IMG/VR virus record: IMGVR_UViG_3300035670_000085 | Span: 1-64,000 of that record | DNA from: a virus | DNA: 64,000 nt | Strand: one strand, 5' to 3' | Part shown: in pieces, positions 18,717 through 51,001 of the stretch | How positions within the stretch are numbered: position 1 is the first letter of the stretch | Layout: each line of letters begins with the position of its first letter | Translations under genes and position numbers: made by a program | The notes under the pieces: model-generated | Told to the model about the DNA's origin: nothing | What the model saw: the letters and a program-made list of their open reading frames with translations, nothing else | The model's database searches: none

Positions 18717-19379
18717 ATGAAAAGACATAGTATTTTTGTTATTGTTATATTATTTTTACTCAATTTTTATTTTAATTGCGGGGTAATAACTCATAAAGTA
18801 AAACCTTGGCCAGATGGAAAAATTCCATATACTTTTTCTAATAATTTTTCAATAGCTGATAGAATGTTTATAGAGAATTGTATGGATGCATGGGAAAGAG
18901 ATACAAATATTGATTTTTACTATTATTATGGAAGAGATGAAGATTTTTATGTTTTGAGAATATTAAGAGATGACGATAAAGAGGAACCTTCGAGCGCAGC
19001 AACTGTTGGTTATTGTTTTGAACCTATAATTATTTTTGGTGTTTTAGATAGAGCTGTTATTTTACATGAATTAGGACATGTTATTGGTTTATCTCATGAG
19101 CATCAGCGTCCGGATCGAGATAAATATATAAAAGTTTTATATAAAAATATAGATATTGATGTATATTTTTGTTTTAAAAAACGCTCAAAAGAAGAATTTT
19201 TATATGATTATACAAAATTTCCTTATGATTACAATTCTATAATGCATTATTATGAATACTCTTTTTCTAATAACAATAAAAAAGTTATAATCAGTCCTAT
19301 TCCAACCGGAAATACTACCATATCTAAAATAGATATATTAAAAGTTAATGAAATATATAAAAAACCTAAAAATAAATAA
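18717..19379 (+). CDS. Astacin-type zinc metalloprotease, probable lipoprotein
   Basis: 220 aa. Residues 1-20 are a signal peptide ending FYFNC, a relaxed lipobox. The mature part starts with PWPDGKIPYTF, typical of astacins. The zinc site is ILHELGHVIGLSHEHQRPD (HExxHxxGxxHExxR) and the Met-turn is YNSIMHYYE with the zinc-proximal Tyr. All catalytic residues are present, so it should be an active M12A endopeptidase anchored in the host envelope or released. It is homologous to the minus-strand gene at 22721. Possible roles are receptor processing, superinfection exclusion or lysis; none is shown by the sequence. Confidence 0.85.
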   Translation: MKRHSIFVIVILFLLNFYFNCGVITHKVKPWPDGKIPYTFSNNFSIADRMFIENCMDAWERDTNIDFYYYYGRDEDFYVLRILRDDDKEEPSSAATVGYCFEPIIIFGVLDRAVILHELGHVIGLSHEHQRPDRDKYIKVLYKNIDIDVYFCFKKRSKEEFLYDYTKFPYDYNSIMHYYEYSFSNNNKKVIISPIPTGNTTISKIDILKVNEIYKKPKNK

Positions 19380-19384
19380 AATTA

Positions 19385-19398
19385 TACTAATAAATATA
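19385..19398 (+). promoter_or_regulatory. Late-type promoter motif
   Basis: TACTAATAAATATA, an exact copy of the recurrent motif, 28 bases before the gene at 19427. It resembles the T4 late element TATAAATA and has no matching -35 box. Confidence 0.65.
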
Positions 19399-19426
19399 GT
19401 CTAAATAAAATAATAGGTGTTTCAAA

Positions 19427-19831
19427 ATGGATTTTCAAAAGCTTTCTAAAAAATATAATATCGGTATTGAAATTATAAAAAAAGAATTATTTCCTATAGC
19501 ACAAGAAGAAGCAGAGGCAATGGGTAAAGGAAATGATACTTCTTATATTTTTCAAATTTTAGAAGAGCTTTGTGAGGGATATCTTGTTGAAAATTCATAT
19601 GGGTCTAAATATAAAAGCCTATTTGATACAGAAAGTAGATATAAGCCAATCTTTGGTGACTCAATACAATATAAATCTGTTATGGATGATGGAGAATTAG
19701 AAGAAGAAATCGAAGGAGTTATGTCTACGGATGGTGTTCAATCTACTGATTTTGATACAAATATGTTGCCAGAATATCCGGTTGGAATGACGGTCGATCA
19801 GGTTAATAAGAAAAAGAAAGAATATAATTAA
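19427..19831 (+). CDS. Late protein with three tandem capsid-tag-like motifs
   Basis: 134 aa, function unknown. The N-terminal 55 residues are helical and acidic (FPIAQEEAEAMGKG). Around residues 59-92 come three successive segments, KYKSLFDTE, RYKPIFGD and QYKSVMDD, each matching the core R/K-Y-K-x-(L/I/V)-F/M of the N-terminal tag on the 39-51 kb proteins. The C-terminus is acidic then basic (VNKKKKEYN). It has its own late promoter and precedes Hsp20. It may mimic or be processed like the tagged proteins, or act in head assembly; this is inference. Confidence 0.65.
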   Translation: MDFQKLSKKYNIGIEIIKKELFPIAQEEAEAMGKGNDTSYIFQILEELCEGYLVENSYGSKYKSLFDTESRYKPIFGDSIQYKSVMDDGELEEEIEGVMSTDGVQSTDFDTNMLPEYPVGMTVDQVNKKKKEYN

Positions 19832-19921: not shown

Positions 19922-20497
19922 ATGTCAAAGTACAATGATTCTATGATCTCTCTTCTTGATGCTGTTGATAAGATATTTGATACAGCAGCCAATAGTGTGT
20001 CTTCAAACACTTATTATATTTCCACAGGTGAAATAGAAACAACACCAAATTCTATTACAACAACAGGAAATACTTTTACTGATACGTATTATTACCAAAA
20101 TCACTACTATCCATATTATTGGATTTGGCCATCAGTTCAAATAGATATTCCAAAAATTGATGTTCCGCATTATCCAGTAGCCAATGGTTTTATTAGAGAA
20201 GATGGAAGTATTTATTTTCGTTTTGCAGTTACTGGTTACGATAAATCAGAATTGTCAATTAAAGCAGAAGATAACACTCTTGTTATAGAAGGAAAACTGA
20301 AAGAAAAAGAAGATACTTCCAAATGGAAAGAATTGTTTCATAATTTGGCAATAAAAGATTTTATTTGGAAACGTAGAATTTCTAATAAGTATGATCTAGA
20401 AAAATTGGACGCAAAAGTTGAAAAAGGAATATTAGAAATTACAATTCCTTTGAAAGAAGCTTGCAAACCGATTAAAAAAGAGTTTGAAATAAAATAA
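19922..20497 (+). CDS. Small heat-shock protein (Hsp20 / alpha-crystallin)
   Basis: 191 aa from ATG 19922 (AAAGG upstream); an in-frame GTG at 19889 has no good ribosome site. Residues 1-95 are Ser/Thr/Tyr-rich and disordered-looking, including a Tyr/Pro patch. Residues about 100-190 are an alpha-crystallin domain: IYFRFAVTGYDKSELSIKAE, LVIEGKLKEKED and VEKGILEITIPL, ending with a K-x-F-E-I tail. T4-like phages of several lineages carry Hsp20 chaperones near structural genes, probably to help virion assembly. It ends at a terminator. Confidence 0.85.
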   Translation: MSKYNDSMISLLDAVDKIFDTAANSVSSNTYYISTGEIETTPNSITTTGNTFTDTYYYQNHYYPYYWIWPSVQIDIPKIDVPHYPVANGFIREDGSIYFRFAVTGYDKSELSIKAEDNTLVIEGKLKEKEDTSKWKELFHNLAIKDFIWKRRISNKYDLEKLDAKVEKGILEITIPLKEACKPIKKEFEIK

Positions 20498-20561: not shown

Positions 20562-20592
20562 ATAGGGGGGGCTTGAACTCCCCTATTTTTTC
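20562..20592 (+). terminator. Rho-independent terminator after Hsp20
   Basis: A GC-rich stem (ATAGGGG with CCCCTAT, extended by a G-T pair) with a 7-base loop, followed by six T. It separates the Hsp20 unit from the glycosyltransferase-like gene. Confidence 0.8.
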
Positions 20593-22720: not shown

Positions 22721-23335
22721 TCAATCTTCATATACATCAGCAGTATATATATCACGAACTTTTTTATAATCTTCTTGAGTAATTTCAAAATTCCAGATAG
22801 GAACAGGAGATTCAATAGTTTCTTCTCCATTTTTACTTGCAGCAAAACTTCCATAATGCATAATACTATTATAATCATAAGGATATTTAGTATAATCATA
22901 CGACCAATATTCTTTAGGAAAAATATCAAATTGATCTTTCCAACTAGATTTAATATTTTCATAATGAATAGTAATATAATTATCCCTATCTGGACGTTGA
23001 TGTTCATGAGGAAGTCCAATAGTATGACCAAGTTCATGTTGAACTATATATAAAATTATATTCGACAATTTAATATACGGGTATTCCATGAAACCTACAG
23101 TTGAACAATTTTCATTTGACCTTTGAATAATAACCACATTGACATTACATTCTGTTTTTATAAATTTAATATCTGTACTTTTTTCCCAACTTTCCATAGC
23201 ATATTCAATGATATATTGTTCAGAAGAAGTGAATGAACTACCATAACAATAAGGAATTTCTCCTGCAGGCCACACATCTATTTGTGGAGCACATTTAACA
23301 AAGATAAATAATAATAGAAACAAATATTTTTTCAT
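22721..23335 (-). CDS. Astacin-type zinc metalloprotease, probable lipoprotein
   Basis: 204 aa. Signal peptide of about 15 residues ending FVKC, a relaxed lipobox, then VWPAGEIPYCYG. The zinc site is VQHELGHTIGLPHEHQRPD and the Met-turn YNSIMHYGS. All expected M12A residues are present. It shares the architecture and many residues with the protein at 18717, although one is in a rightward and the other in a leftward unit. The upstream promoter is early-type while the 18717 copy is at the end of the replication operon, so the two could act at different stages. Confidence 0.85.
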   Translation of the reverse strand: MKKYLFLLLFIFVKCAPQIDVWPAGEIPYCYGSSFTSSEQYIIEYAMESWEKSTDIKFIKTECNVNVVIIQRSNENCSTVGFMEYPYIKLSNIILYIVQHELGHTIGLPHEHQRPDRDNYITIHYENIKSSWKDQFDIFPKEYWSYDYTKYPYDYNSIMHYGSFAASKNGEETIESPVPIWNFEITQEDYKKVRDIYTADVYED

Positions 23336-26257: not shown

Positions 26258-26848
26258 ATGAAAAGATATAAACCATTATTTGAAGCAGAAGATTATAGAG
26301 GGGATCACAGGGCTCCGGTCAAAGATGATGCACCTTTATATGATGTAACTTTAAATGGAATTTATCCAGAAGATATTTATTCTTCTCATGGTGTACAATA
26401 TTATGGAGACGGACAACCTTATGATAATCAAACTATGAATATCATTCATGCATATCATAATAAACCAAATGAAAAAATAAAAATTTATAGAGCTGTTCCA
26501 AAAGTTTTATTTTTATCAAATGAAGAACAAATTAAAGAATATGAAGCACAGAAAAAATATATATTGAAAACAGGTAAGATTCCAAGATCAGTTACTAATT
26601 GGAGTGATAAATCAGAATATTATGATTTTATAAGTGATGAGATAGATAGATTAAAAAAATTACCATCAAATCAAGAAGAAAAGATTAGAATTAATAGTGG
26701 TGATTGGGTAGCCATAACACCACAATATGCCAAAGAACATGGTAAACATTCACTAAATAATAAATTTAGAATTTTATCAAAAGTTGTATCTGATAAAGAT
26801 ATTTTTACTGATGGTAATTCCATACATGAGTGGGGATATGTAAAATGA
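26258..26848 (+). CDS. Putative packaged ADP-ribosyltransferase with capsid-targeting tag
   Basis: 196 aa. It begins MKRYKPLFEAED, the same tag as the 39-51 kb cluster. The body has KIKIYRAVPKV (candidate catalytic Arg), then GDWVAITPQYAKEHG and a final SIHEWGYVK, an R...S/T...E order resembling the ADP-ribosyltransferase fold found in phage head-associated toxins. T4 packages and injects the ADP-ribosyltransferase Alt, which has a cleaved N-terminal tag, so this protein is a plausible functional counterpart. Activity and substrate are not shown. ATGA overlap with the next gene. Confidence 0.55.
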   Translation: MKRYKPLFEAEDYRGDHRAPVKDDAPLYDVTLNGIYPEDIYSSHGVQYYGDGQPYDNQTMNIIHAYHNKPNEKIKIYRAVPKVLFLSNEEQIKEYEAQKKYILKTGKIPRSVTNWSDKSEYYDFISDEIDRLKKLPSNQEEKIRINSGDWVAITPQYAKEHGKHSLNNKFRILSKVVSDKDIFTDGNSIHEWGYVK

Positions 26849-29135: not shown

Positions 29136-29241
29136 TGTTTATTTTTTTTGTATATTTTTGAAAAAAGTGTAAATTTTATATAAATCAATTATATATTCTC
29201 TAATAAGAAATATAAGATTTTTTGATGTAAAATAGTTTTTA

Positions 29242-33291: not shown

Positions 33292-35211
33292 ATGGCAGAC
33301 AACAGTAAACCGCAAAAACCAGGTAGGTTTAATTTTTTTAAAAGATTTTTCAAGATTGCAATAAACCCCGATAAAACACAACCATCAGATCAAATATTTC
33401 CTATAAAACCAACATATGATGATAATGGTGATGTTAATTTTAATCCAGAGACATTTCCTCCTGAAGTACAAAGATTTTATAATTATTTCTTAACACAAAG
33501 GAATACTAGAGAAAAAATTAAAGATAGAGATAAATTATGGGAAGATTTGCAACTTCTATATTGGAACTGTCCTCTTATAAGCCGTGCAATGGATATTTGT
33601 GCTGCTGAAGTTATACAAGCCGACACTGCTATGATTCCTATTCAAGTTGAAGCCCCGGAAGATCAAAAAGATTTTATATTAGAATTTTATGATAAAATAT
33701 CTTTATATAAACAATTAACTCCAACTATAAAAGATATTGTTAAATATGGAAATGCTGTTTGGGTTCTTGGTATGGATGATAATGGAATAACTGAAATTAT
33801 TCCTACTGAAATTAGACAACTTCGAGATCGACTTGAATTTACTCCTTATATGGTTGAAGAAGAATTAAATAAAAATAAAATATATACTGATTATCTTTCT
33901 ATAGAAAGAGTTAAAAATCTTGTAGATCATATTTTAAATAATAGTGATGAAACTACAAAGATGTTTAAACGATATTTGATAGGGTTTCAACTTCATGATT
34001 ATATTCTTCCTCCTTGGAGAGTAATTCATTTTAGAAATGCAACTACAGAGAGTCCTTTTGATCCTTTTGGTGTTCCCTTTTATACACATGCACTTGCTCC
34101 ATATAAAATGTGGGATGCTGGACAAACATTTAAAACAATGGCAAGAGCATTAAATTTTCCTATTGAAAAGTGGACCATTAATCTTCCTAATGTTGTTGAT
34201 CCAGTAGAGAAATTTAATAGAGTTAGACAATTTATAAATAAACTTGATAATGTTGCTTTTAAATGGCAGAATAAAGAAGATCAAACAATGGGACAGAGAG
34301 TTTTTGCTATTAAAGATCTACTTGAATATGAAATGGTAAAACCGGATATAGATTTAAAAGATATGGAAGAAGATTCTTTGCGAGAAGAATTGGTTGTTGC
34401 AACTAGACTTCCTAGATTTATTATTGATCCAAGAGAGTCTGGATTTGGTGAGGGGGGTTCTACACTTGTAGAAAAATGGAAAGAATTTGCTAGATTTGTA
34501 TTTACTATACAATCTATTTTCCTTGAACAACTTTCACAACTTACTAAAATGCATATGATTCTTTCAGGAAAATTTCAAGAAGATGAAATTGATTTTATCT
34601 TATCCATGCCTTTTCCAGAAAGTAAAAATTCTGAACTTGTTGAATCACAAAATAGATTATTAGATTTTTCTAAGTCTTTAATGGACACAATAAGTGAAAA
34701 ACTTTTTAATGGACAGCCTATTCCTAAAGAAGTTGCTGTAAGTATATTGCATCAAATGAATATATTTGACCAGACTGTTATAGATGGTTGGATTGATATT
34801 CTTGATAAAAACAAACCAGAAACTCCTATAAATAATTCTGAGGATATGGGTTTAGGAGACAGTGATTCTTTTATGGGAGAAGCTTTACAACTCAAACATA
34901 AATTAAAAAAATTTATTGAACAATTTGATGATTCTAATATTAAAGAATGGAAAAAATTAGAAGAATCTACCGGCAAAAAGAAATTAAATGAACAAATAAC
35001 ATCTTTGATTTTTAAACAAAGACAAAAAACTTTTAAAGAAGGTGTTATGAAAAAAGGACATTTTTACTCAAGTACTAATAAAAGCACTGATTTTGATCCT
35101 TATCTATTAAGAAAATGGGATGTAGAAAGAGTTAAAAAACTTCAAGAAGTTGGTGAATTTGTAAAAGATGAGGAACCCCTTCAAGAATTATTTGAAACTA
35201 CTGAAGAATAG
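33292..35211 (+). CDS. Portal protein (T4 gp20-like)
   Basis: 639 aa. Portal features in order: a basic Phe-rich N-terminus (GRFNFFKRFFK), SRAMDICAAEVIQADTAMI, IVKYGNAVWVLGMDDNGI, LPPWRVIHFRNATTESPFDP, APYKMWDAGQTFKTMARAL, LEYEMVKPDIDLKDMEED and RLPRFIIDPRESGFGEGGST, then a helical crown. Forms the dodecameric vertex through which DNA is packaged and on which the prohead assembles. The terminase is not in this window. AGAGGAATGAAGTT precedes the ATG. Confidence 0.88.
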   Translation: MADNSKPQKPGRFNFFKRFFKIAINPDKTQPSDQIFPIKPTYDDNGDVNFNPETFPPEVQRFYNYFLTQRNTREKIKDRDKLWEDLQLLYWNCPLISRAMDICAAEVIQADTAMIPIQVEAPEDQKDFILEFYDKISLYKQLTPTIKDIVKYGNAVWVLGMDDNGITEIIPTEIRQLRDRLEFTPYMVEEELNKNKIYTDYLSIERVKNLVDHILNNSDETTKMFKRYLIGFQLHDYILPPWRVIHFRNATTESPFDPFGVPFYTHALAPYKMWDAGQTFKTMARALNFPIEKWTINLPNVVDPVEKFNRVRQFINKLDNVAFKWQNKEDQTMGQRVFAIKDLLEYEMVKPDIDLKDMEEDSLREELVVATRLPRFIIDPRESGFGEGGSTLVEKWKEFARFVFTIQSIFLEQLSQLTKMHMILSGKFQEDEIDFILSMPFPESKNSELVESQNRLLDFSKSLMDTISEKLFNGQPIPKEVAVSILHQMNIFDQTVIDGWIDILDKNKPETPINNSEDMGLGDSDSFMGEALQLKHKLKKFIEQFDDSNIKEWKKLEESTGKKKLNEQITSLIFKQRQKTFKEGVMKKGHFYSSTNKSTDFDPYLLRKWDVERVKKLQEVGEFVKDEEPLQELFETTEE

Positions 35212-39564: not shown

Positions 39565-39849
39565 ATGAAACGTTATAAATCATTATTAGAAGATGATAAA
39601 AATAAACGATTTGCTTTACTTCTTTCTGATATGAAACATAGTCGTGGTTCATTTAAATATTTTGATACTGAAAAAGAAGCAGTTGATTTTGTTAAGAAAC
39701 TACACAGCCAAAATAAACTTATGAGATATGTAGAAATAGAATTGCTTGATAGAAGTATTAAAGATTATCAAAGTCCTAAATATAGTAGAGTATTGTGGGA
39801 TGGATTACATAATGAATTATATGTTAGAGGATATTTGGAGAGAATATAA
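39565..39849 (+). CDS. Tagged protein 1 of the capsid-targeting cluster
   Basis: 94 aa, starts MKRYKSLLEDD, with Glu at position 9. The remainder (FALLLSDMKHSRGSFKYFD, then EKEAVDFVKKLHSQNK) is a small alpha/beta domain, not recognised. First member of the run of tagged genes and directly follows the membrane gene. Confidence 0.7.
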   Translation: MKRYKSLLEDDKNKRFALLLSDMKHSRGSFKYFDTEKEAVDFVKKLHSQNKLMRYVEIELLDRSIKDYQSPKYSRVLWDGLHNELYVRGYLERI

Positions 39850-39868
39850 TAAATAAGAGGTTATCGTC

Positions 39869-40009
39869 ATGGGTAAAAATCCTTCAGAAGCAAATAAAAA
39901 AGAAACTCCTAAATGGAAAACAACTATAGTTATTTCTCATTATATAAAACCTAATGGGGCATGGGGAAAAAGAACTACAGAAATACGTGAAGAGGTTATT
40001 AAAAAATGA
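39869..40009 (+). CDS. Small untagged protein within the tagged cluster
   Basis: 46 aa, MGKNPSEANKKETPKWKTTI at the N-terminus, ending REEVIKK. AAGAGG before the ATG; ATGA overlap with the next tagged gene. Basic. Not recognised. Confidence 0.55.
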   Translation: MGKNPSEANKKETPKWKTTIVISHYIKPNGAWGKRTTEIREEVIKK

Positions 40010-40509
40010 GACGATATAAACCGCTGTTTGAAAAAGTTGATTTAGAAAAAAAAGATTATCATGTTAGAGAATGGGATGAAGATTCTCGTGATACATGGGA
40101 ATATCTTCTTTCTAAATATGAAAACTGGGATCAAGCTAATAAAGATGGTATGGGAAGTCTTTATAATACTTTAGAAAAAAGTTTTATAAGTAATGGTGAT
40201 GTTGCAAAGGAATTACTAAAATCTAATAGACAAAATAAAAATTATTTAAATGTTGGTGATGTTCTTTATTTTAAATATATAAACGCTTCAATAATGGGAA
40301 GAAATCCTTTGGATAATAAAGGTATAAAAGAGTTTAAAAAAAATGCATATGTAATTGTGACAGAAGTGAATTTAGAATCTAAAGTTTATGGGTTTAATAA
40401 AAGCAATAAAAACAAAACAATATTAGGAAATACTTTTTATTATAAAATAAGCGATATAAATGAGTTATTAGAAAAACGAGAAGGAAAATCAATAGAAGTA
40501 ATTTATTAA
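40006..40509 (+). CDS. Tagged protein 2
   Basis: 167 aa, starts MRRYKPLFEKVD. After the tag comes a charged helical segment, then a beta-rich part (LNVGDVLYFKYINASIMG, KNAYVIVTEVNLESKVYGF). No family recognised. Both flanks are within 4 bases of neighbours. Confidence 0.7.
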   Translation: MRRYKPLFEKVDLEKKDYHVREWDEDSRDTWEYLLSKYENWDQANKDGMGSLYNTLEKSFISNGDVAKELLKSNRQNKNYLNVGDVLYFKYINASIMGRNPLDNKGIKEFKKNAYVIVTEVNLESKVYGFNKSNKNKTILGNTFYYKISDINELLEKREGKSIEVIY

Positions 40510-40511
40510 TT

Positions 40512-40811
40512 ATGAAACGTTATAAAAAATTATTTGAATCACAAACTTATCATTCAATAGCTTACAGAGATATTGAAAATACAAGATATAAATCTATAAA
40601 ACCATATAGAGAATATCTTATTATTACTTCTGAAAGTAAAATAGAAAAAGATGGAAATATGATTTGTTATGATAACATTAAATTATATACTAAAGAAAAT
40701 TATGCATCTAAAAAAATATCTAACAAAATGATTTTAGTTGATGTAAAAAATATGTGCATTGATATTAAAAGAGACCATTGGATATTTAAAAATGAGGATA
40801 TAAATATATGA
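40512..40811 (+). CDS. Tagged protein 3
   Basis: 99 aa, starts MKRYKKLFESQTYHS. The body is a small beta-rich domain (YREYLIITSESKIEKDGNMI). Ends in a 4-base overlap. Not recognised. Confidence 0.7.
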   Translation: MKRYKKLFESQTYHSIAYRDIENTRYKSIKPYREYLIITSESKIEKDGNMICYDNIKLYTKENYASKKISNKMILVDVKNMCIDIKRDHWIFKNEDINI

Positions 40812-41239
40812 AACGGTATAAACCCTTACTTAGAGAGGAAAATTCACTATCGCAATTAGATAAACCAGAATTAGTAGATAAATTATTTCAATATTTTAAA
40901 GAGAATCCGTATCCACTTGACCACGAAGGATTCCATAAATTTGCTGAATCTCTTGGTATGGAAGCAGATGATTTAGAAATCTATGGTTGGGCAATTATTA
41001 GCTGTTTTGTTACTGGTGGAAATTTTAATAAGTCTGGTAAGAAAGAAGAAGATTTTGATTCTAAAGAAATTGAGATTGGAATTGATATTGAAAAAGAGCA
41101 TACCGACTATACTAATGAAAATCCTGTTGTAAAACGTATTGCAAATTTTATGCAAAAAAGAATTGCAAAAGATCATCTTTCAGAATTTTCAAATTATTAT
41201 ACTTTGTTAAAAGAAATGGAAAAAAATGCAAAAAAATAA
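40808..41239 (+). CDS. Tagged protein 4, DUF5661 family
   Basis: 143 aa, starts MKRYKPLLREEN. From residue 30 it follows the DUF5661 pattern: PYPLDHEGFHKFAESLGM, IGIDIEKEHTDYT and KDHLSEFSNYYTLLKEME. The E-H-T and D-H-L motifs suggest a helical metal-binding or DNA-binding fold; the function of the family is unknown. This shows the tag is fused to recognisable, separate protein families. Confidence 0.75.
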   Translation: MKRYKPLLREENSLSQLDKPELVDKLFQYFKENPYPLDHEGFHKFAESLGMEADDLEIYGWAIISCFVTGGNFNKSGKKEEDFDSKEIEIGIDIEKEHTDYTNENPVVKRIANFMQKRIAKDHLSEFSNYYTLLKEMEKNAKK

Positions 41240-41246
41240 TAATATA

Positions 41247-41260
41247 TACTAATAAATATA
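41247..41260 (+). promoter_or_regulatory. Late-type promoter motif inside the tagged cluster
   Basis: TACTAATAAATATA, exact copy, 26 bases before ATG 41287; AAAGAGG lies between. Confidence 0.65.
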
Positions 41261-41286
41261 TAACAATAAAAAAGAGGTAATTGATC

Positions 41287-41604
41287 ATGTATAGAAGTGT
41301 ATTTGAAGAAAGCAATGGTAAAAGAAAAATGAATGAAGCTGTAGTATTTTCTATTAGCACAATAGACGATGCTTTTGAAGCTATTCAAAAATGTGTTGCA
41401 TTGATAATTGAAAAGAAAAAATCCAGCATGGCTATGATGCTTCCTAGAATAGCTGAAGCAGTAATGAACGGAATTAAAGATGCACTTGGAAATATCTATA
41501 GTGATCCTAACAAAATTGAATCTGTTAAAAAACAAATAGTAGCTAAATTTATTCGTTTCTTTAAACAAGATGCAGTTAGTGCTCCAGAAGAACCAATGAT
41601 GTAG
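41287..41604 (+). CDS. Tagged protein 5 (shortened tag)
   Basis: 105 aa from ATG 41287 (GAGG upstream; the in-frame TTG at 41281 is not needed). It starts MYRSVFEESNGK, the tag lacking the leading KR. The rest is helical (VFSISTIDDAFEAIQKCVAL, MAMMLPRIAEAVMNGIKDAL) with an acidic-proline tail. Preceded by a late promoter. Not recognised. Confidence 0.65.
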   Translation: MYRSVFEESNGKRKMNEAVVFSISTIDDAFEAIQKCVALIIEKKKSSMAMMLPRIAEAVMNGIKDALGNIYSDPNKIESVKKQIVAKFIRFFKQDAVSAPEEPMM

Positions 41605-41612
41605 TATTAAGT

Positions 41613-41882
41613 ATGAAACGATACATTAGTATTTTTAAAGAATCTGGAACTGGTAATTACGCACCAAGTAGCATTCTTTTTAAAACAGATGAAGAGTTTA
41701 ATAGGGCAGTGGAATTGTTAAGTTCTCTTAATTTTCAATTTAAACCAGATTTCTATATAAGAAAAAATGGTAATATTTCTGGGTATAGTAAAAATTATTT
41801 AAGTTTTACATACTCTAAAGATTGGACTAAACTTGTTAAACTTCTTCAAAAAAATAATGTAGATTTCAAACAAATAAAATGA
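41613..41882 (+). CDS. Tagged protein 6
   Basis: 89 aa, starts MKRYISIFKESGTG. A small alpha/beta domain follows (EEFNRAVELLSSLNFQF, KDWTKLVKLLQKNNVDFK). ATGA overlap with the 33-aa gene. Not recognised. Confidence 0.7.
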   Translation: MKRYISIFKESGTGNYAPSSILFKTDEEFNRAVELLSSLNFQFKPDFYIRKNGNISGYSKNYLSFTYSKDWTKLVKLLQKNNVDFKQIK

Positions 41883-41980
41883 GGCGATACAAACCATTAT
41901 TTGAATATATGACTCCTTCCGAAAGGAAAGGAGCTTTTCTACATGGTCAAACTAATTTAGGAAAGATGGTAATGAAATGA
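41879..41980 (+). CDS. Tagged micropeptide, 33 aa
   Basis: Starts MRRYKPLFEYMTPSERKG and ends GKMVMK. ATGA overlaps with both neighbours (41879-41882 and 41977-41980) show it is a real translated link. After removal of the tag only about 24 residues remain, so it may be a decayed member or a packaged peptide. Confidence 0.6.
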   Translation: MRRYKPLFEYMTPSERKGAFLHGQTNLGKMVMK

Positions 41981-42216
41981 AAAGATACAAAAGTATATTT
42001 AAAGAATCAAAAGAAGATGTTATAAAACGAGCATTAAATTTTGCAGATTCTGGCTCATTTCCTGTTAATAGAAAAGTATTTCGTTTTATGATGTATTTAA
42101 ATGATGAACAATTTGATATTGAAGAAATTAAGCAATTAGCATGTGAATTCTATAAAATACATAGAAGTAAAGTAGAAGGAATATTTAAAGAAGTTGAAAG
42201 ATTAGAAAAAATATGA
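41977..42216 (+). CDS. Tagged protein 7
   Basis: 79 aa, starts MKRYKSIFKESKED. All-helical remainder (VIKRALNFADSGSF, EEIKQLACEFYKIHRSKVEG). ATGA overlaps on both sides. Not recognised. Confidence 0.7.
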   Translation: MKRYKSIFKESKEDVIKRALNFADSGSFPVNRKVFRFMMYLNDEQFDIEEIKQLACEFYKIHRSKVEGIFKEVERLEKI

Positions 42217-42884
42217 AAAGATACAAACAACTTTTTAAAGAAGATCATGAACATTGGATAGATATAAAATTTTCTGATATAGAAAAGTTGGAAGAAGAAC
42301 TTCATCTTGCAGATTTTAAAAAACATGCTGGTGCTTCTGATTTTACAAAAGATTGGATAGAAATAAGACGTAAGATAAAAGGACCAGGAAACAAATCAGC
42401 TAAATTACATTCACTAAAGGTAAATCGTAAGGACGATTACGTTATTTTTGTATTTAAATCATCACCAACATATTCCGGATTAGAAAAATCAGTCAATGTT
42501 AAATCTATGACATGGAATGGAAAAGTTAAAGCTTATACCGAAATGATAAAAATAAATGACTTCTTCAAATTGGCAGAAACTAAACCAGGATATGTTGAAA
42601 AAGAAATGACTTGGAAAGAAATAAAAGAAATTCTTTCTGTTGCGCCGATTTCGGTCTCCTGCAATTGCGGAAGTTTCACCTATCAAGGATTGTCTTATTA
42701 TTTGACACAATTAGAGGGAACAATTTTTCCAAATAATATAGAACCGAAGCGATGGAATAAATACCATGATAAAGGAAATGATATAGGATTGCTTTGTAAA
42801 CATTTATCAATGATTTTTAATAGCATAGATTTCTTTTTATCTAACTTTACAAGTATGATAAATAAATATATTCAGGGTAAATAA
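42213..42884 (+). CDS. Tagged protein 8 with SWIM-like zinc motif
   Basis: 223 aa, starts MKRYKQLFKEDHEH. The C-terminal half has SVSCNCGSFTYQGLSYYLT and GLLCKHLSMIFNSIDFF: C-x-C followed by C-x-H, the SWIM-type zinc ligand set, which in other proteins binds DNA or protein. The N-terminal half contains a strand-rich ELADFKKHAGASDFTKDWI region. Function unknown; packaging with DNA would suit a nucleic-acid binding role. Confidence 0.7.
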   Translation: MKRYKQLFKEDHEHWIDIKFSDIEKLEEELHLADFKKHAGASDFTKDWIEIRRKIKGPGNKSAKLHSLKVNRKDDYVIFVFKSSPTYSGLEKSVNVKSMTWNGKVKAYTEMIKINDFFKLAETKPGYVEKEMTWKEIKEILSVAPISVSCNCGSFTYQGLSYYLTQLEGTIFPNNIEPKRWNKYHDKGNDIGLLCKHLSMIFNSIDFFLSNFTSMINKYIQGK

Positions 42885-42885
42885 C

Positions 42886-43386
42886 ATGCCTTCACGGTCA
42901 GAGAGACAAAGAAATTTCATCTTTGCTAAACGCGGAGAATACAAAACCAAATCAGATACTCCAGAAGATTGGAAATGGGTGTGGAATGATGAATGGGAAA
43001 AAATAGAGGAGAGGTTTCCAATAAAACGATATAAACCATTGTTTGAATCAAATAAAATTATCTATTTTATCCGTGCAACAGATAAACAAGAAGTACAAAG
43101 TAAACATTATGGAGATTACTGGAGATTCTTCAAGTCCTTAAAAGATTTATCTAATTTAATAAAATCAAATCAATTATATGTTGCTCAAAAAGATAAAAAT
43201 GATCAATATATGATAATAGGACAAGGAAATATAGACGAACTTGAATTAAATTATTCTGAATTAAACGATGACTTTGATTCAAAAGAGATGCATTTTAAAT
43301 TCAAAGACTTATTCGATAAAAATTATACACCTTCCTCTAAAGTTCTTTATGCTGGAAAAATTGATTACGATTTAAAATTAAAATAA
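42886..43386 (+). CDS. Protein with internal capsid tag after an N-terminal extension
   Basis: 166 aa. Residues 1-44 are MPSRSERQRNFIFAKRG-type, a short basic motif seen in other phage proteins, followed by EDWKWVWNDEWEKIEE. Residues 46-55 are IKRYKPLFES, the tag without Met. DNA just before it reads AGAGGAGAGG (43005-43014), a strong ribosome site 6 bases before ATA at 43021. The C-terminal part (YFIRATDKQEVQSKHYGDYW) is a separate domain. It looks like a fusion of two genes, or a start codon changed from ATG to ATA. Confidence 0.65.
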   Translation: MPSRSERQRNFIFAKRGEYKTKSDTPEDWKWVWNDEWEKIEERFPIKRYKPLFESNKIIYFIRATDKQEVQSKHYGDYWRFFKSLKDLSNLIKSNQLYVAQKDKNDQYMIIGQGNIDELELNYSELNDDFDSKEMHFKFKDLFDKNYTPSSKVLYAGKIDYDLKLK

Positions 43387-43387
43387 T

Positions 43388-44536
43388 ATGAAAAGATATA
43401 AACCATTATTTAAAGAATCTATTCAATCAGAAAAAGCTATAGCAGAATTAGTTGATTTCGTTATAGATAAATTATCTAATAATATGATGAAAAAAATAAA
43501 TAATGGTGATTTTATTCCAGAAAAAAGATTTAATTTAAGAATGAGTTTTGATGAAAATAAATATTCAAATCCACCAGAAATATTAAAAGAATTTGTTAAT
43601 TTATTTTTATATGAATTTGATGTTATATTATCAAGTGATAAAGATAAAGCAAATGGTGTATATCAAAGTAAAAAAAATAGAATAGTATTATGGAATGTAT
43701 TATTTCCAAATACATGGACTAAAGATAATCCTCATTTTGAAGGAAAAAAAGAAATTAAAGATTATTTCAGAAGATATTCTAGAGGTACTCTAATTCATGA
43801 GTTTGCCCATGCTTATGACGATTTTATAAGTCGTGGAAAATATTTACCTAAAAAATATAAAGATGCCCCAGAAAGTCATGAAGACGAGAAGGGATGGAAA
43901 GATTACGCAAAACAAAATTTAGAAGTCAATGCAAGATATACTGATTGGATAAATGAACATCAAAAAGAAAGAATTACTTACACTTGGCCAGAATATGTAA
44001 AAGAATTTAAACAAGAATGGGGGATTAAATACTTAAATCCGGAACAATATCGAAGACTTATAAATAGACTATTTGCTCAATATAATGAACCACTACCAGA
44101 AGATTTTAAACTAGAAGTTTTAAATAGTTTATCCTTTAAATTATTTCATAAAGGATTTGAGAATAAGTTAAATGTTAATGATTTTATTCCAGAAGATAAA
44201 AGATGGAAAGATCAACTGACCAAAAAAGATATTTTTAATTATATGAAAAAATCTATACAGAATATTTTAACTGGAAAAGTTAAAGAATCTGAGATAAAAA
44301 ATCCAGCAATAATTGATAATAGATATGCTGGTTTAAAATCTATAAAATATAGTTTTGAATTGATTGATTCTATGGAAGAAAATCTTAAAAAACATGCAGA
44401 CAATCCAGATATTGTTAAAACAATTCAAAAACAAATTGATAAAGAATTAGCATATTATGAAGGATTTAAAAGAATATTTAAATTATCTGATGAAGATTTA
44501 AAACAGATTAATGATGTTATGATAAAATATTCATAA
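43388..44536 (+). CDS. Tagged HExxH zinc metalloprotease
   Basis: 382 aa, starts MKRYKPLFKESIQS. Around residue 135 is GTLIHEFAHAYDDFISRG (HExxH in a helix) and about 30 residues later NLEVNARYTDWI, a possible Glu ligand. The C-terminal 200 residues are mostly helical. It is the largest tagged protein. If the tag directs it into the head, it would be carried in the virion and could act at the start of infection or in head maturation; no substrate is evident. Starts 1 base after the previous stop. Confidence 0.7.
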   Translation: MKRYKPLFKESIQSEKAIAELVDFVIDKLSNNMMKKINNGDFIPEKRFNLRMSFDENKYSNPPEILKEFVNLFLYEFDVILSSDKDKANGVYQSKKNRIVLWNVLFPNTWTKDNPHFEGKKEIKDYFRRYSRGTLIHEFAHAYDDFISRGKYLPKKYKDAPESHEDEKGWKDYAKQNLEVNARYTDWINEHQKERITYTWPEYVKEFKQEWGIKYLNPEQYRRLINRLFAQYNEPLPEDFKLEVLNSLSFKLFHKGFENKLNVNDFIPEDKRWKDQLTKKDIFNYMKKSIQNILTGKVKESEIKNPAIIDNRYAGLKSIKYSFELIDSMEENLKKHADNPDIVKTIQKQIDKELAYYEGFKRIFKLSDEDLKQINDVMIKYS

Positions 44537-44559
44537 TTTCTATTATATTGAAGAAATTA

Positions 44560-44573
44560 TACTAATAAATATA
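44560..44573 (+). promoter_or_regulatory. Late-type promoter motif inside the tagged cluster
   Basis: TACTAATAAATATA, exact copy, only 12 bases before ATG 44586, so a transcript from it would have a very short leader, or the motif mainly serves the genes beyond. Confidence 0.6.
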
Positions 44574-44585
44574 AAGGTAATAAAT

Positions 44586-44837
44586 ATGAAAAGGTATAAG
44601 CCATTATTCGAATCCTCTCAAAGATTTTGTGCAATATATAAAGCACAAAATAATAAATGGTACCTAGCTCTTGCTGACGAAGAATACGGTACATCAGAAG
44701 ATGCCACTACTTACGGACCTTTTTCTAGTAAAGAGCAAGCTCATAGGTATTTGTTGAGAAATTTTTCAAATCCTGGTGGAATAATTGAGGATGGTTCTGG
44801 AGAACATTCAGTACCTCCCAGTGTTGTTAAGCCTTAG
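44586..44837 (+). CDS. Tagged protein 9
   Basis: 83 aa, starts MKRYKPLFESSQRF. The body has KWYLALADEEYGTSEDATTY, GPFSSKEQAHRYLLRNFSN and a Gly/Pro-rich tail, the look of a small conserved phage domain with a tail exposed to solvent. Family not named. AAGG upstream. Confidence 0.7.
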   Translation: MKRYKPLFESSQRFCAIYKAQNNKWYLALADEEYGTSEDATTYGPFSSKEQAHRYLLRNFSNPGGIIEDGSGEHSVPPSVVKP

Positions 44838-44877
44838 ATCTACATAGACAATTCAAAAATAGAATAGGTATGTAATT

Positions 44878-45231
44878 ATGATATGTGAACTAATTTCTTT
44901 CAGTGCAGCAGAACTCAATACAGGAATAGATGTTATAAAAGATATAGAATTTATTTCTATAGTTAAAAATGATGCAGAAGCGCTTCCAAAAGTATATAGA
45001 CCAATTGAGATACGCTTTTCAAATGTAAGCGGTATTGCAGCAAATATTGATATTTTTTCTGATATCGAACATGCTGCTTATCTAACAACTCCAACTTTAT
45101 CTGATAAAATAACTATAGCTAATGGCGGTACATTGACATTAACCCCAACTAAAGATGCTATTACTAAAATAGTTGCTAAAGGTACAGCAGGACATTCTGG
45201 AAATTTAAATATTACAATAATAAAAGAGTAG
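44878..45231 (+). CDS. Untagged beta-rich protein, paralogue of 46906
   Basis: 117 aa, beginning MICELISFSAAELNTG. Beta-rich with repeated strands (PIEIRFSNVSGIAANI, ITKIVAKGTAGHSG). Shares start context, FSDxE, TPTxxD and the final (I/E)I-K-E with the gene at 46906. No tag. A virion surface or decoration role is possible but not shown. Confidence 0.6.
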   Translation: MICELISFSAAELNTGIDVIKDIEFISIVKNDAEALPKVYRPIEIRFSNVSGIAANIDIFSDIEHAAYLTTPTLSDKITIANGGTLTLTPTKDAITKIVAKGTAGHSGNLNITIIKE

Positions 45232-45240
45232 GTGTAAAAA

Positions 45241-45537
45241 ATGAAAAGGTACAAAAGCTTATTTAAAGAAGATTCTACAGAATTTAATAATGATGATTTT
45301 GTTTATCAAGAATTAAAATTTAAAAAACAATTATCAAAAGAATTGAAATTACCTTATACTGGAAAATGGGCAAATCAAAATAAAGAACTTCCAATTTATT
45401 TTGATGATGCAGATATGGTGTCAATGTTAGATGATAAAACTATTTTTAAAAATGCTATAAATGGTAAGCATACATATGGAGAATTAAAAACATTTGTTAT
45501 AAACTTTATGAAAAAAAACACTCCTAATCTTATTTAA
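45241..45537 (+). CDS. Tagged protein 10
   Basis: 98 aa, starts MKRYKSLFKEDSTE. Charged helical domain (YQELKFKKQLSKELKLPYTG) with an acidic middle (YFDDADMVSMLDDK). AGGTG upstream. Not recognised. Confidence 0.7.
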   Translation: MKRYKSLFKEDSTEFNNDDFVYQELKFKKQLSKELKLPYTGKWANQNKELPIYFDDADMVSMLDDKTIFKNAINGKHTYGELKTFVINFMKKNTPNLI

Positions 45538-45552
45538 TAGAGGTAAAAAAAA

Positions 45553-45834
45553 ATGAAAAGATATAAAAGTGTTATTAGTAAAAATGAAATAAAATTAAAT
45601 GAATCTAAGTGGAGTGATGCTAATCTAAGCAGGTTCTTTTTTAGTGGTGAATATGATAATTATCAGCATGGGAATCCAAAGAAAGCAGCGCAGCAAATTT
45701 ATGATCTCACTGTTAATTATTTAGATAATATTGAAAAGAATCTAGAATTGGCAGGTTCATTTTTAGCACCAGCCATAAAAGATGAACTTGAAAAAATGTT
45801 AAAAAAGAATTTTAGTAGAATAAAAATAAAATGA
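45553..45834 (+). CDS. Tagged protein 11 (diverged tag)
   Basis: 93 aa, starts MKRYKSVISKNEIKLNES. The usual LFKE is replaced by VISKNE, and a second site IKLNE follows, so cleavage may be shifted. The rest is helical (NPKKAAQQIYDLTVNYLDNI). AGAGG upstream; 4-base overlap with the next gene. Confidence 0.65.
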   Translation: MKRYKSVISKNEIKLNESKWSDANLSRFFFSGEYDNYQHGNPKKAAQQIYDLTVNYLDNIEKNLELAGSFLAPAIKDELEKMLKKNFSRIKIK

Positions 45835-46139
45835 AAAAATATAAATCATTATTTAAAGAATCTGAACAAAAAGCTAGTTACGATTTGGTAGCAAATCTTT
45901 ATAAAAAGGGTTCAAAATGGAGAACTATAGAGTGGGCAAATAATAATGATAAAGCAATAATATCTAATCTATCTCCAACTCTTTTAAAAAAAGGAGAGAA
46001 TTGTAATATTGAGATGATGAAAGGTTCTTCTCAATTTAATCTCATAATTTCATGGAAAAACTCTAGCAATGTCATATTAGGATGCTCACTTTCTTTTGAT
46101 AATGAAAAAGAAGCACAGAAAGAAGGGTGGAGTATATGA
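45831..46139 (+). CDS. Tagged protein 12
   Basis: 102 aa, starts MKKYKSLFKESEQK. Body: ASYDLVANLYKKGSKWRTIE then a beta-rich C-terminal half (SQFNLIISWKNSSNVILGCS). ATGA overlaps on both sides. Not recognised. Confidence 0.7.
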   Translation: MKKYKSLFKESEQKASYDLVANLYKKGSKWRTIEWANNNDKAIISNLSPTLLKKGENCNIEMMKGSSQFNLIISWKNSSNVILGCSLSFDNEKEAQKEGWSI

Positions 46140-46363
46140 AGCGTTATACACCAATAAAACTACAAGAACAAGATGAAGAAGAATTACATCCACGAGTTCT
46201 TGAAATACTCGATTGTTTCAAAAACGAAGATTTTAATAATTTTTCAAAACGTCTTGATTTTGCATCAAAGCTACTTGAAATTATAGTATTATCAAAGGAT
46301 GTTCGTATAAGAAGACTCATAAAGAAAATCTGTCAGGCAATAAAAGAAATAGAGGAGGAATAA
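46136..46363 (+). CDS. Tagged protein 13 (variant tag)
   Basis: 75 aa from ATG 46136 in the ATGA overlap; the in-frame ATG at 46127 lies within the previous gene. Starts MKRYTPIKLQEQDEEE; LQE is an L-x-E cleavage-type site one residue later than usual. Helical remainder (RVLEILDCFKNEDFNNFSKR). Confidence 0.65.
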   Translation: MKRYTPIKLQEQDEEELHPRVLEILDCFKNEDFNNFSKRLDFASKLLEIIVLSKDVRIRRLIKKICQAIKEIEEE

Positions 46364-46365
46364 AA

Positions 46366-46608
46366 ATGAAAAGATATAAGAGTATTTTAAAAGAAGCACA
46401 ACCAATTCATATCGGAAAAGTTACTGTTTTTGTTCATTTGAAAATCAAAGAAGAAGAAGTAAGTAAGATTATAGATCTATTTGATAATATAGATAGCGAT
46501 CAAAAAATTCAAAATTTTCAATATTTAGCTGGAAATATGAAACTTAAAAATTTAGCAAAATTTATTGATAATAAAAATATTTATCTTTTAAGAATTTCAG
46601 AGGAATAA
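46366..46608 (+). CDS. Tagged protein 14
   Basis: 80 aa, starts MKRYKSILKEAQPI. Small alpha/beta domain (GKVTVFVHLKIKEEEVSKII). Adjacent to and similar in size and start to the next gene. Not recognised. Confidence 0.7.
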   Translation: MKRYKSILKEAQPIHIGKVTVFVHLKIKEEEVSKIIDLFDNIDSDQKIQNFQYLAGNMKLKNLAKFIDNKNIYLLRISEE

Positions 46609-46610
46609 AA

Positions 46611-46859
46611 ATGAAAAGATATAAAAGCATTATTAAAGAAGCTGAATTTTCAAAAGGAAACATCCAGGCAATAATTGCCGCATTTAAAGAATGTGGATTT
46701 AAAGTTGAAGGGAAAGAAGGCGAACAGAAAGAAGGAATTTTTTATGCTTCTTTTGAGAAAGGAAAAGAAATTCTCTCTATAGAGGATGCTATAGAAAACT
46801 TACAAGCATTAAAAAAAAACGATAGAAAAAACACAGGATATAGATTTGAAATAGTATAG
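46611..46859 (+). CDS. Tagged protein 15
   Basis: 82 aa, starts MKRYKSIIKEAEFS. Body: GNIQAIIAAFKECGFKVEGK then DAIENLQALKKNDRK, an alpha/beta fold reminiscent of small DNA-binding or regulatory domains. Not recognised. Confidence 0.7.
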   Translation: MKRYKSIIKEAEFSKGNIQAIIAAFKECGFKVEGKEGEQKEGIFYASFEKGKEILSIEDAIENLQALKKNDRKNTGYRFEIV

Positions 46860-46905
46860 CACGACAATCCAATCAGATTTGATATATCCGACTGAGAGAG
46901 TAATT

Positions 46906-47253
46906 ATGATAACTGAAAAAATTGCAATAGTTAACGCAGACCTCGTAGCGGGAAAAGCGGTTAAAACAATAGAAGATATATCTTTAACTAGATTAGATGC
47001 ACAAGCTTCATCGAAACAATATATTCCTATCAAAATAAAATGTACTAATAACACTAATGTTTCTGGCAATTTTATTGCATTTTCTGATATGGAATATATA
47101 CAATATATAGCAACACCAACAATTACTGATTTAGTTCCTTTAGCAATCGGTGAATCGTTTGAATATATTCCAACAAATCAAAAAATGACAACTATTGTGG
47201 TCGAGTCTGCTGTTTTTACTGGAACCTATGATATAGAAATTTGGAAAGAATAA
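46906..47253 (+). CDS. Untagged beta-rich protein, paralogue of 44878
   Basis: 115 aa from ATG 46906 (GAGAGAG upstream); the in-frame ATG at 46879 has a worse site. Begins MITEKIAIVNADLVAG. Beta-rich with YIPIKIKCTNNTNVSG and FSDMEYIQYIATPTITD, aligned throughout with the protein at 44878. Its first 27 bases are nearly repeated at 47506. Confidence 0.6.
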   Translation: MITEKIAIVNADLVAGKAVKTIEDISLTRLDAQASSKQYIPIKIKCTNNTNVSGNFIAFSDMEYIQYIATPTITDLVPLAIGESFEYIPTNQKMTTIVVESAVFTGTYDIEIWKE

Positions 47254-47272
47254 ATTTTGAAGTTTAAATAAA

Positions 47273-47503
47273 ATGAAAAGGTACAAGAGTGTTATTAAGG
47301 AATCTGGGGATAATTATGAGAATTTTGGCATCTCCTTATCAAAAATGTATAGTAAATCGACAAATATGACGCAATTAGCCAATATGATTTCAAATAGTAT
47401 TGGAGAAGAGATCGGAGATAGCGAGGATTTAATAAAGGTATCTAAAACTCTTATTGGTAATTTACAAGACCTTATAAATGATGCAAAATCTTCAAGAGAA
47501 TAA
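47273..47503 (+). CDS. Tagged protein 16
   Basis: 76 aa, starts MKRYKSVIKESGDN. Helical remainder (SKMYSKSTNMTQLANMISNS, DLIKVSKTLIGNLQDLIND). Not recognised. Confidence 0.7.
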   Translation: MKRYKSVIKESGDNYENFGISLSKMYSKSTNMTQLANMISNSIGEEIGDSEDLIKVSKTLIGNLQDLINDAKSSRE

Positions 47504-47505
47504 AT

Positions 47506-47667
47506 ATGATAATTGAAAAAATTGCAATAGTTAGCTTTGAGAGCGACCCAAAAACGTATAGTGAAATGCGTAAGCTTGTGGACGAACATTTCTCCGAAAA
47601 GGGTGGAGGTTGGTCTAGCGGTTTTAGGAATTTTATAAAATACGTAAGGGGAGAGGAAGTATATTAA
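47506..47667 (+). CDS. Small gene with copied start region, possible partial duplication
   Basis: 53 aa. The first 30 bases differ from those of the 46906 gene at only a few positions (MIIEKIAIVS against MITEKIAIVN), then the sequences are unrelated: FESDPKTYSEMRKLVDEHFS, GGGWSSGFRNFIKYVRG. Codons such as CTT, GTG, GGT and AGG give it a visibly higher GC content than its neighbours. It may be a recombinant chimera carrying foreign sequence. The 79 bases after it hold no supported gene. Confidence 0.5.
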   Translation: MIIEKIAIVSFESDPKTYSEMRKLVDEHFSEKGGGWSSGFRNFIKYVRGEEVY

Positions 47668-47746
47668 AAAAAGCGGAAACGACAACTATGAAAAATAGGA
47701 AAGAGTGCGTATAAAAAAATTTTAAACAACGAGGAAGGGAAATAAG

Positions 47747-48112
47747 ATGAAAAGATACAAATCAATTTTAAACGAAGAATCACAATTTTCTAAAAATTTA
47801 CATAAGTATTTAAGACATTATGATAATCTTGAAACTTATAGCGAGTTAATTAAATTAATAAAAACTATAAATTATAATAAAAAAATAGAAACAGATGAAG
47901 CAAAACAAAATGTTTATAAAGCTGTAATTTTATTGCTTCTTGGATATACTGGTTCAGAAGTGAGTAATAAACGTGATTATCTTTCTAAAGAATGGGAGAA
48001 AGAGGAAGAAAGTAAGAACGAAACTCCAGATGAATTTATGAAAAGAATGAAAATGGTGCCTTATAAAGAAAATTTGTCATGCAATAAAAGAAATGGAGGA
48101 GGAATAAAATGA
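47747..48112 (+). CDS. Tagged protein 17
   Basis: 121 aa, starts MKRYKSILNEESQF. Helical (KYLRHYDNLETYSELIKLIK) with a charged C-terminal segment (WEKEEESKNETPDEFMKRMK). ACGAGGAAGGG upstream; 4-base overlap with the next gene. Not recognised. Confidence 0.7.
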   Translation: MKRYKSILNEESQFSKNLHKYLRHYDNLETYSELIKLIKTINYNKKIETDEAKQNVYKAVILLLLGYTGSEVSNKRDYLSKEWEKEEESKNETPDEFMKRMKMVPYKENLSCNKRNGGGIK

Positions 48113-48420
48113 AACGATATAGAAGTATTTTTAAAGAAGAAAAAAATTTACCTAATATGGATATTGATTCTTTTGTTAAAGAATTAATGAAAAATAGAAA
48201 TTTAAAAGATACTTTTAAATCGTATACTATTGATGAATCTTATGAAAATCCAGATGGAGATTTTAATTCTGTTATTTATTTAGAAGATTTTATAACTGAA
48301 AGACCAAGTTATGATTTTGTGAATCATTTACGCAGGATTGTTAATAAAAATGAAGATATTATTGATAGTAATATTGGTCGGGACAAATATAGAGTTGTTT
48401 TAAATATAACCCATAAATAA
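48109..48420 (+). CDS. Tagged protein 18
   Basis: 103 aa, starts MKRYRSIFKEEKNL. The body (DIDSFVKELMKNRNLKDTF, then ITERPSYDFVNHLRRIVNKN) is an alpha/beta domain of unknown type. The preceding GGAGG lies in the previous gene. Confidence 0.7.
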   Translation: MKRYRSIFKEEKNLPNMDIDSFVKELMKNRNLKDTFKSYTIDESYENPDGDFNSVIYLEDFITERPSYDFVNHLRRIVNKNEDIIDSNIGRDKYRVVLNITHK

Positions 48421-48435
48421 AAAGGTGGAAATAAA

Positions 48436-48639
48436 ATGAAACGATACAAATCGATACTTAAAGAAGGAATGAGATACAATACTAGCTATTTTGAAGCAGG
48501 AAAAGATTTAAGATCAGCAAAAAAAATAGATACTGTAATTGGTGTTTTAGAAGAAATGATTATGGAATTAAAAGCTTGGAAAAAAGAAGGAGCTAAAGAA
48601 GTTCAAGGAAATAAAAATGAATTTATTCCATTATGGTAA
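48436..48639 (+). CDS. Tagged protein 19
   Basis: 67 aa, starts MKRYKSILKEGMRY. Helical (GKDLRSAKKIDTVIGVLEEM). Last tagged gene before the prohead protease-scaffold gene, 18 bases upstream of it. AGGTGG precedes the ATG. Confidence 0.7.
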   Translation: MKRYKSILKEGMRYNTSYFEAGKDLRSAKKIDTVIGVLEEMIMELKAWKKEGAKEVQGNKNEFIPLW

Positions 48640-48657
48640 TAGTGTAGGTAAAAGAAA

Positions 48658-50724: not shown

Positions 50725-50735
50725 TAAAAAATAAA

Positions 50736-50764
50736 CTCAAAGGAGGAATTCAAACTCCTTTGAG
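50736..50764 (+). terminator. Hairpin after the protease-scaffold gene
   Basis: CTCAAAGGAG pairs with CTCCTTTGAG (10 bp) around a 9-base loop. Only ATTTCTTT follows, so termination may be partial, letting some transcripts continue into the next tagged gene. Confidence 0.55.
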
Positions 50765-50785
50765 ATTTCTTTAAAGATAATAAAA

Positions 50786-51001
50786 ATGAAACGATATAAA
50801 TCATTATTCAAAGAAGAATTTCCTCTTAATTACAAACAAGGAATGTTTCTTAAAAACATTATAGAGGAATATCTTATAGATATTGGAAAAGAAGAAAAAA
50901 GAAAAGAAGCGTTTACTATAATTTTACATGCAATATCTAACCATAAACTTGATTTTGATAAAGATAAAATTTTATTGTTTTTACAGAAAAAATATAATTA
51001 A
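50786..51001 (+). CDS. Tagged protein 20
   Basis: 71 aa, starts MKRYKSLFKEEFPL. Helical, basic C-terminus (KDKILLFLQKKYN). It lies between the protease-scaffold and major capsid genes, the position of further head genes in T4-like phages. Not recognised. Confidence 0.7.
   Translation: MKRYKSLFKEEFPLNYKQGMFLKNIIEEYLIDIGKEEKRKEAFTIILHAISNHKLDFDKDKILLFLQKKYN

Follow-up and report, generated by a model that had tools for sequence, protein, structure and literature searches.

Three tandem internal copies of a putative capsid targeting tag in a predicted late gene product of an uncultivated T4-like phage

Introduction

The closest described system to the one examined here is the capsid targeting sequence (CTS) of phage T4. 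According to the available text of PMC9026906, residues 4 and 7 of the T4 CTS are responsible for targeting and residues 8 and 10 for processing. The same text reports that processing is inhibited when residue 10 is Asp, but that targeting is kept. T4 IPIII, for example, starts with MKTYQEFIAEA (NC_000866).

Here, we analyze a gene from an uncultivated, T4-like phage that is represented by a record of 99,896 bases. The window, which is the whole stretch of DNA that was analyzed, consists of the first 64,000 bases of this record and has ~26% G+C. The gene begins at position 19427, and its product carries three consecutive copies of a tag core that is found at the N-termini of other proteins of the same phage.

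Results

A family of tagged proteins in a phage with T4-type head genes

Twenty-four ORFs of the record begin with, or near, the pattern MKRYK[SP][LI]FKE, and the tag reads MKRYKSLFKE-S. This set omits the tags at 41281 (TTG start) and 47273, which were dropped by an overlap filter; both fit the cleavable rule by eye. The tagged ORFs and the head genes are arranged as follows.

Positions 39565-51001, plus strand: cluster of ORFs with N-terminal MKRYK[SP][LI]FKE, lying directly before and around the protease gene and before the capsid gene.
Positions 8044 and 26258, and record positions 77371, 98614 and 99018 beyond the window: further tagged ORFs.
Positions 48658-50724, plus strand: T4 gp21-type (Peptidase_S77) prohead protease whose C-terminal part is long and acidic.
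Positions 51207-52715, plus strand: major capsid protein, Pfam Gp23 (E 1.3e-5, above the gathering cut-off).
Positions 51327-51353, plus strand: tag-like site in the capsid protein, residues 41-49, KTYRSMLQE, with a cleavable LxE.

A profile built from the proteases of three relatives matched T4 gp21 (hhalign probability 90, E 1.5e-6) and the solved T4 protease structure, PDB 5jbl (E 1.9e-5), and the 48658-50724 protein itself gave a sub-threshold match to Pfam S77 (E 0.025). The sequence profile was used in place of an AlphaFold model made from three sequences, which was poor (pLDDT 44) and was set aside. The protease is 688 aa long, compared with 212 for T4 gp21, and its C-terminal part is coiled-coil-like, an arrangement that also occurs in relatives G001 and G006; it is possibly a protease-scaffold fusion. 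ORF 33292-35211 matched T4 gp20 in a six-sequence set (phmmer E 3.8e-5) and is a probable portal protein. Thus, the phage has both a gp21-type protease and a gp23-type capsid protein. The tag also has M1, K2, Y4 and E10 in common with IPIII, and this likeness, together with the two head genes, suggests that the tag is most plausibly a CTS.

ORF 42886-43386 carries its tag core internally, at about residue 48 and behind a 46-residue N-terminal segment, and we take this position to result either from a fusion or from a start lying further upstream. Other tagged proteins include an SprT-like metalloprotease (record 98614, L003:18115-18522) and, at window positions 26258 and 40808, a protein that matches the phage ParB C-terminal domain and a DUF5661 protein. 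These three kinds of protein are candidate packaged effectors.

The 19427 gene and its neighborhood

The open reading frame named in the preliminary description proved to be real, with correct coordinates and frame. The gene and its nearest features are listed below.

Positions 19427-19831, plus strand: the 19427 gene, with an ATG start and a confirmed frame; 134 aa, 15.4 kDa, pI 4.4.
Positions 19415-19419, plus strand: Shine-Dalgarno-like AGGTG, read directly from the sequence.
Positions 19427-19597, plus strand: predicted three-helix domain, codons 1-57, with helices at 3-10, 14-31 and 38-57 (AlphaFold2, single sequence).
Positions 19922-20497, plus strand: Hsp20-like gene, next downstream (phrog_432, E 8.2e-9).
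Positions 20562-20586, plus strand: terminator-like hairpin with a T run, 3' of the Hsp20-like gene.

In the single-sequence AlphaFold2 model, the mean pLDDT of ten-residue blocks was 84-92 within residues 1-50 and 57 for residues 51-60, and pLDDT was mostly below or near 50 over residues 56-109; a short helix was predicted at residues 123-132. The low-confidence acidic tail, which holds all three motif copies, is probably disordered. Foldseek returned no match to the model at E <= 0.001 in BFVD or the PDB, and the best Z score in a VIA fold comparison was 4.1, which is uninformative for a three-helix domain.

The Hsp20-like ORF runs from GTG 19889, with ATG 19922 as the preferred start. Homologues were present in 3 of 16 relatives, and the one in G011 (34% identity) is located among the tagged genes of that relative. 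Four terminator-like hairpins were found, compared with 0.8 +/- 1.2 in shuffled sequence. Because one of them lies 3' of the Hsp20-like gene, this gene and the 19427 gene probably form one transcription unit. On the other side, ORF 18717-19379 encodes an astacin-family protease (Pfam E 6.5e-34), which is unusual for a phage, and ORF 22721-23335 looks by eye like its paralogue.

The 19427 protein contains three tandem tag cores

As the preliminary description had reported, the 19427 protein carries three tag-core units in a row. They make up residues 61-90 and have an exact ten-residue period.

Positions 19607-19636, plus strand: copy 1, residues 61-70, KYKSLFDTES.
Positions 19637-19666, plus strand: copy 2, residues 71-80, RYKPIFGDSI, with Asp at CTS position 10.
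Positions 19667-19696, plus strand: copy 3, residues 81-90, QYKSVMDDGE, with Asp at CTS positions 9 and 10.

The units start at residues 61, 71 and 81, away from the N-terminal position of a CTS. The pattern YK[SP][LIV][FLIMV] matches the protein at residues 62, 72 and 82. When the protein was shuffled 20,000 times, one match arose in 133 shuffles and two or more in none. Shuffling of the whole record (172 ORFs, 200 times) gave a mean of 0.785 proteins with at least one match and 0.01 with at least two. Among the 172 ORFs (31,744 residues), the only other matches away from start tags were in 42886 (residue 49) and 96312 (residue 186).

We also derived a scoring matrix from the 24 N-terminal tags, applied it to the copies and compared them with 28,681 internal windows elsewhere. 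Copy 1 was equaled or beaten by two of these windows and copy 2 by one, and 57 windows equaled or beat copy 3. Copies 1 and 2 are therefore strong on their own, whereas copy 3 by itself is weak, and its main support is the exact spacing. The units are pairwise identical at 15 of 30 DNA bases, and thus recent DNA duplication does not explain the array. The accompanying statement that no other protein in the window repeats the motif was nearly right, the exception being 40512, which has an N-terminal tag and, in addition, part of another (RYKSIK, residue 25).

The copies retain targeting positions but lack the processing residue

The T4 targeting positions are kept throughout the array, with Tyr at position 4 and Leu, Ile or Val at position 7 in all three copies. 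By contrast, a hydrophobic-x-Glu at positions 9-11 is found in none of the three copies, compared with 23 of the 24 N-terminal tags (Glu at 9, 10 or 11). The earlier proposal that the protein is cleaved at each copy was thus not supported. Together, these residues suggest that the copies are competent for targeting but dead for processing. Only 13 of the 24 N-terminal tags fit the strict Leu/Ile rule, however, and 10 have Phe where T4 requires Leu or Ile, so that applying the T4 processing rule to this phage is an extrapolation. The missing Glu is also expected of unselected sequence. Internal tags elsewhere keep the Glu, as seen in 42886, in G017 (residue 179) and in the two tandem tags of G011.

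Outside the copies, the 19427 protein has L/I-x-E sites at residues 46, 47, 50, 55, 93 and 116. Shuffled versions have 2.27 such sites on average, and six were reached in 64 of 5,000 shuffles; four of the six fall within helix 3 of the model. Through the sites at 55, 93 and 116, the protease could still cut on either side of the array or excise it whole. According to a further suggestion of the preliminary description, the array may sit in the tag's usual receptor. This is plausible by analogy, because the copies retain the T4 targeting positions without those for processing.

A late-promoter-like motif precedes the gene

One further feature lies immediately upstream of the gene.

Positions 19383-19398, plus strand: perfect copy of the late-promoter-like motif TATACTAATAAATATA, 44 nt upstream of 19427.

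The 99.9 kb record contains this 16-base motif in perfect form 12 times, before the capsid and sheath genes, tagged genes and others of the structural region. The ORFs that follow the copies are 19427, 29278, 37934, 41281, 44586, 51207 (capsid, 184 nt), 72113, 73397, 77371, 90101, 93457 (sheath-like) and 98614, where the target was taken as the next ORF, or as the next tagged start where the overlap filter or an upstream start had hidden one. The other perfect copies in the window are at 29240, 37901, 41245, 44558 and 51023, with more in L002/L003. A version of the motif with one additional leading base, searched with a tolerance of three mismatches, gave 20 matches in the window, compared with 5.85 +/- 2.46 in shuffles, none of which (0/100) reached 20.

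Of the 80 plus-strand genes in the structural half, 12 have the core TAATAAATA upstream, compared with 1 of 55 minus-strand genes and none of the 17 plus-strand genes left of 18.7 kb; this count leaves out the plus-strand genes at 18.7-23.7 kb, the 19427 gene among them. Near-copies of TATACTAATAAATATA with one or two mismatches also occur between genes in relatives G001, G002 and G009, and none at one or two mismatches was found in G011, G017, G007 or G010. A scan for sigma-70 promoters gave no excess (20 compared with 21.9). Given the perfect upstream copy of a motif common to capsid, sheath and tagged genes, the 19427 gene is very probably late, in agreement with its initial designation as a late gene.

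Tags occur in relatives, and the 19427 protein has no detected homologue

We compared the phage with 16 viral loci related through terminase. Tags of the same kind occur in relatives G001, G002 and G017, and a variant form occurs in G011. The exact pattern MKRYK[SP]xFKE gave no stretches in viral_contigs; a looser pattern gave 16, and L008 and L010 each have several tagged N-termini.

No homologue of the 19427 protein was found in phages by tblastn (the sole record, at E 0.5, was judged to be chance), and residues 1-57 used alone as a tblastn query against phages gave no match. Searches at E up to 10 in three records and in the 16 relatives returned none, nor was any found among 994 ORFs of the retrieved loci; most of the relatives' records are fragments. 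No Pfam, PHROG or NCBIfam family was assigned, and at E up to 10 the PHROGs gave a single weak match, of unknown function (E 0.24).

Protein patterns likewise revealed no homologue in viral_contigs. The two-unit pattern hit 29 stretches, and none of their translations resembled a relative; the three-unit pattern hit five, all of low complexity or in broken frames. In G001, L022:6053-6781 contains YKSLF twice, and its second copy lies, by eye, within a repeated domain, so this ORF was not taken as evidence. A different arrangement is present in G011, where a single ORF, L048:15487-16257, has a tandem pair of cleavable tags (KYKPLFKEAYKMKLQRYVSVFKED) separating two domains, as if two tagged cargo proteins had been fused into a self-releasing polyprotein.

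Discussion

The motif array and its statistics, the gp23- and gp21-type head genes and the late-promoter-like motif were observed directly. From these elements we infer, with about even confidence, that the 19427 protein is a small late protein of the head core (inner head) whose multivalent, non-cleavable targeting array makes it a retained ligand. The protein would consist of a folded, N-terminal helical domain joined to a disordered acidic tail that bears three CTS motifs ten residues apart. These motifs would keep the residues at positions 4 and 7 that allow entry into the prohead core, without the Glu needed by the prohead protease. The tail could then make up to three contacts with the tag receptor of the core and bring the helical domain along. 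Because cuts inside the motifs would not free the tail, the N-terminal domain would stay anchored in the core while ordinary tagged cargo is released. If the copies resist the cleavage that ordinary tags undergo, then the protein would remain bound or be packaged intact. In this account, the identity of the tag as a CTS, binding to the receptor, presence in the head, escape from cleavage and any organizing role are all deduced from sequence.

A stronger version of this reading is that the protein is a dedicated, cleavage-proof adaptor, in which three Glu-less CTS modules, two of them of the Asp type, hold or organize the core receptor, or hold the protease, while singly tagged cargo is freed. 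Such an adaptor would amount to a naturally occurring, arrayed equivalent of the T4 Asp10 mutant, and we propose it only tentatively. The same substrate-like motifs, with Asp replacing Glu, could instead act as a pseudo-substrate or decoy that holds the gp21-type protease, or competes with cargo for the receptor, and thereby times or limits maturation. The combination of a helical domain with a motif array has the build of an adaptor and would suit this reading, but binding to the protease is putative and our literature search returned no precedent for a prohead protease with a pseudosubstrate. The decoy is the least probable of the readings considered.

The L/I-x-E sites raise a different possibility, namely that the protein is a processed core protein like the T4 scaffold components gp22, gp67 and gp68. 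Cuts after residues 55 and 93, on either side of the array, would yield the N-terminal domain and a three-motif peptide of ~38 residues. Six such sites are more than shuffling usually produces, and T4 core proteins are cleaved to several fragments, as stated in the available portions of PMC9026906 and PMC9958956. However, most of the sites are inside the predicted third helix, the copies themselves carry no cleavage residue, the gene does not lie between the portal and protease genes, and phmmer showed no similarity of the protein to gp22, gp67 or gp68. We regard processing of this kind as unlikely. Somewhat more doubtful is that the YK[SP][LIV] repeats bind something else, such as the Hsp20-like chaperone or a host protein, and that their likeness to the tag is convergent. 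The internal position of the copies and the poor score of copy 3 would fit such an array, as would the lack of any detected homologue and the chance occurrence of two-unit tandem matches in unrelated viral frames (the 29 stretches). Against convergence, few internal sites in the record match the tag as well as copies 1 and 2 do, and the gene is very probably a late one in a phage that carries the tag on about 25 proteins.

If the retained-ligand reading is true, then the three processing-dead copies would provide a ready-made, multivalent bait with which to identify the tag receptor, and the 19427 protein would offer a means of separating targeting from cleavage within one chain. Confirmation would mean that the phage uses its targeting code internally and in arrayed form, beyond the removable N-terminal tag.

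Comparison with the head-core proteins of T4 shows both possible likenesses and differences. Like gp22, gp67 and gp68, which are small or acidic late head-core proteins, the 19427 protein is small and acidic, and it may also resemble them in its several L/I-x-E sites. These T4 proteins are not made of CTS repeats, and the best phmmer match between them and the 19427 protein, in a set of six T4 proteins, was to gp22 at E 0.28. The gene position also differs, since 19427 lies at 19.4 kb, outside the portal-protease-scaffold-capsid cluster, with the protease and capsid genes at 48.7-52.7 kb. The T4 gp23 propeptide combines a tag-like NKWKPLLEGE near the N-terminus with the cleavage site FGSFLTE in one chain (NC_000866; the likeness was judged by eye and is unscored), but it is part of the shell protein and is cut off.

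The nearest parallel is the CTS of IPI, IPII and IPIII, which shares with the phage's system Tyr 4, a hydrophobic residue at 7, a ten-residue unit and the pairing of a gp23-type capsid with a gp21-type protease. As proposed for the array, the T4 CTS with Asp at position 10 still directs targeting but escapes processing, according to the available text of PMC9026906. Our literature search returned no match for a capsid targeting sequence combined with tandem copies. Internal tag cores like those of the array are also present in G011 L048:15487-16257, G017 L045:7001-7780 and window ORF 42886, but these keep the hydrophobic-x-Glu and may therefore mark points at which fused cargoes are separated by processing. 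The known CTSs occur once per protein, at the N-terminus, whereas the 19427 protein has three internal copies, none of which carries the processing Glu.
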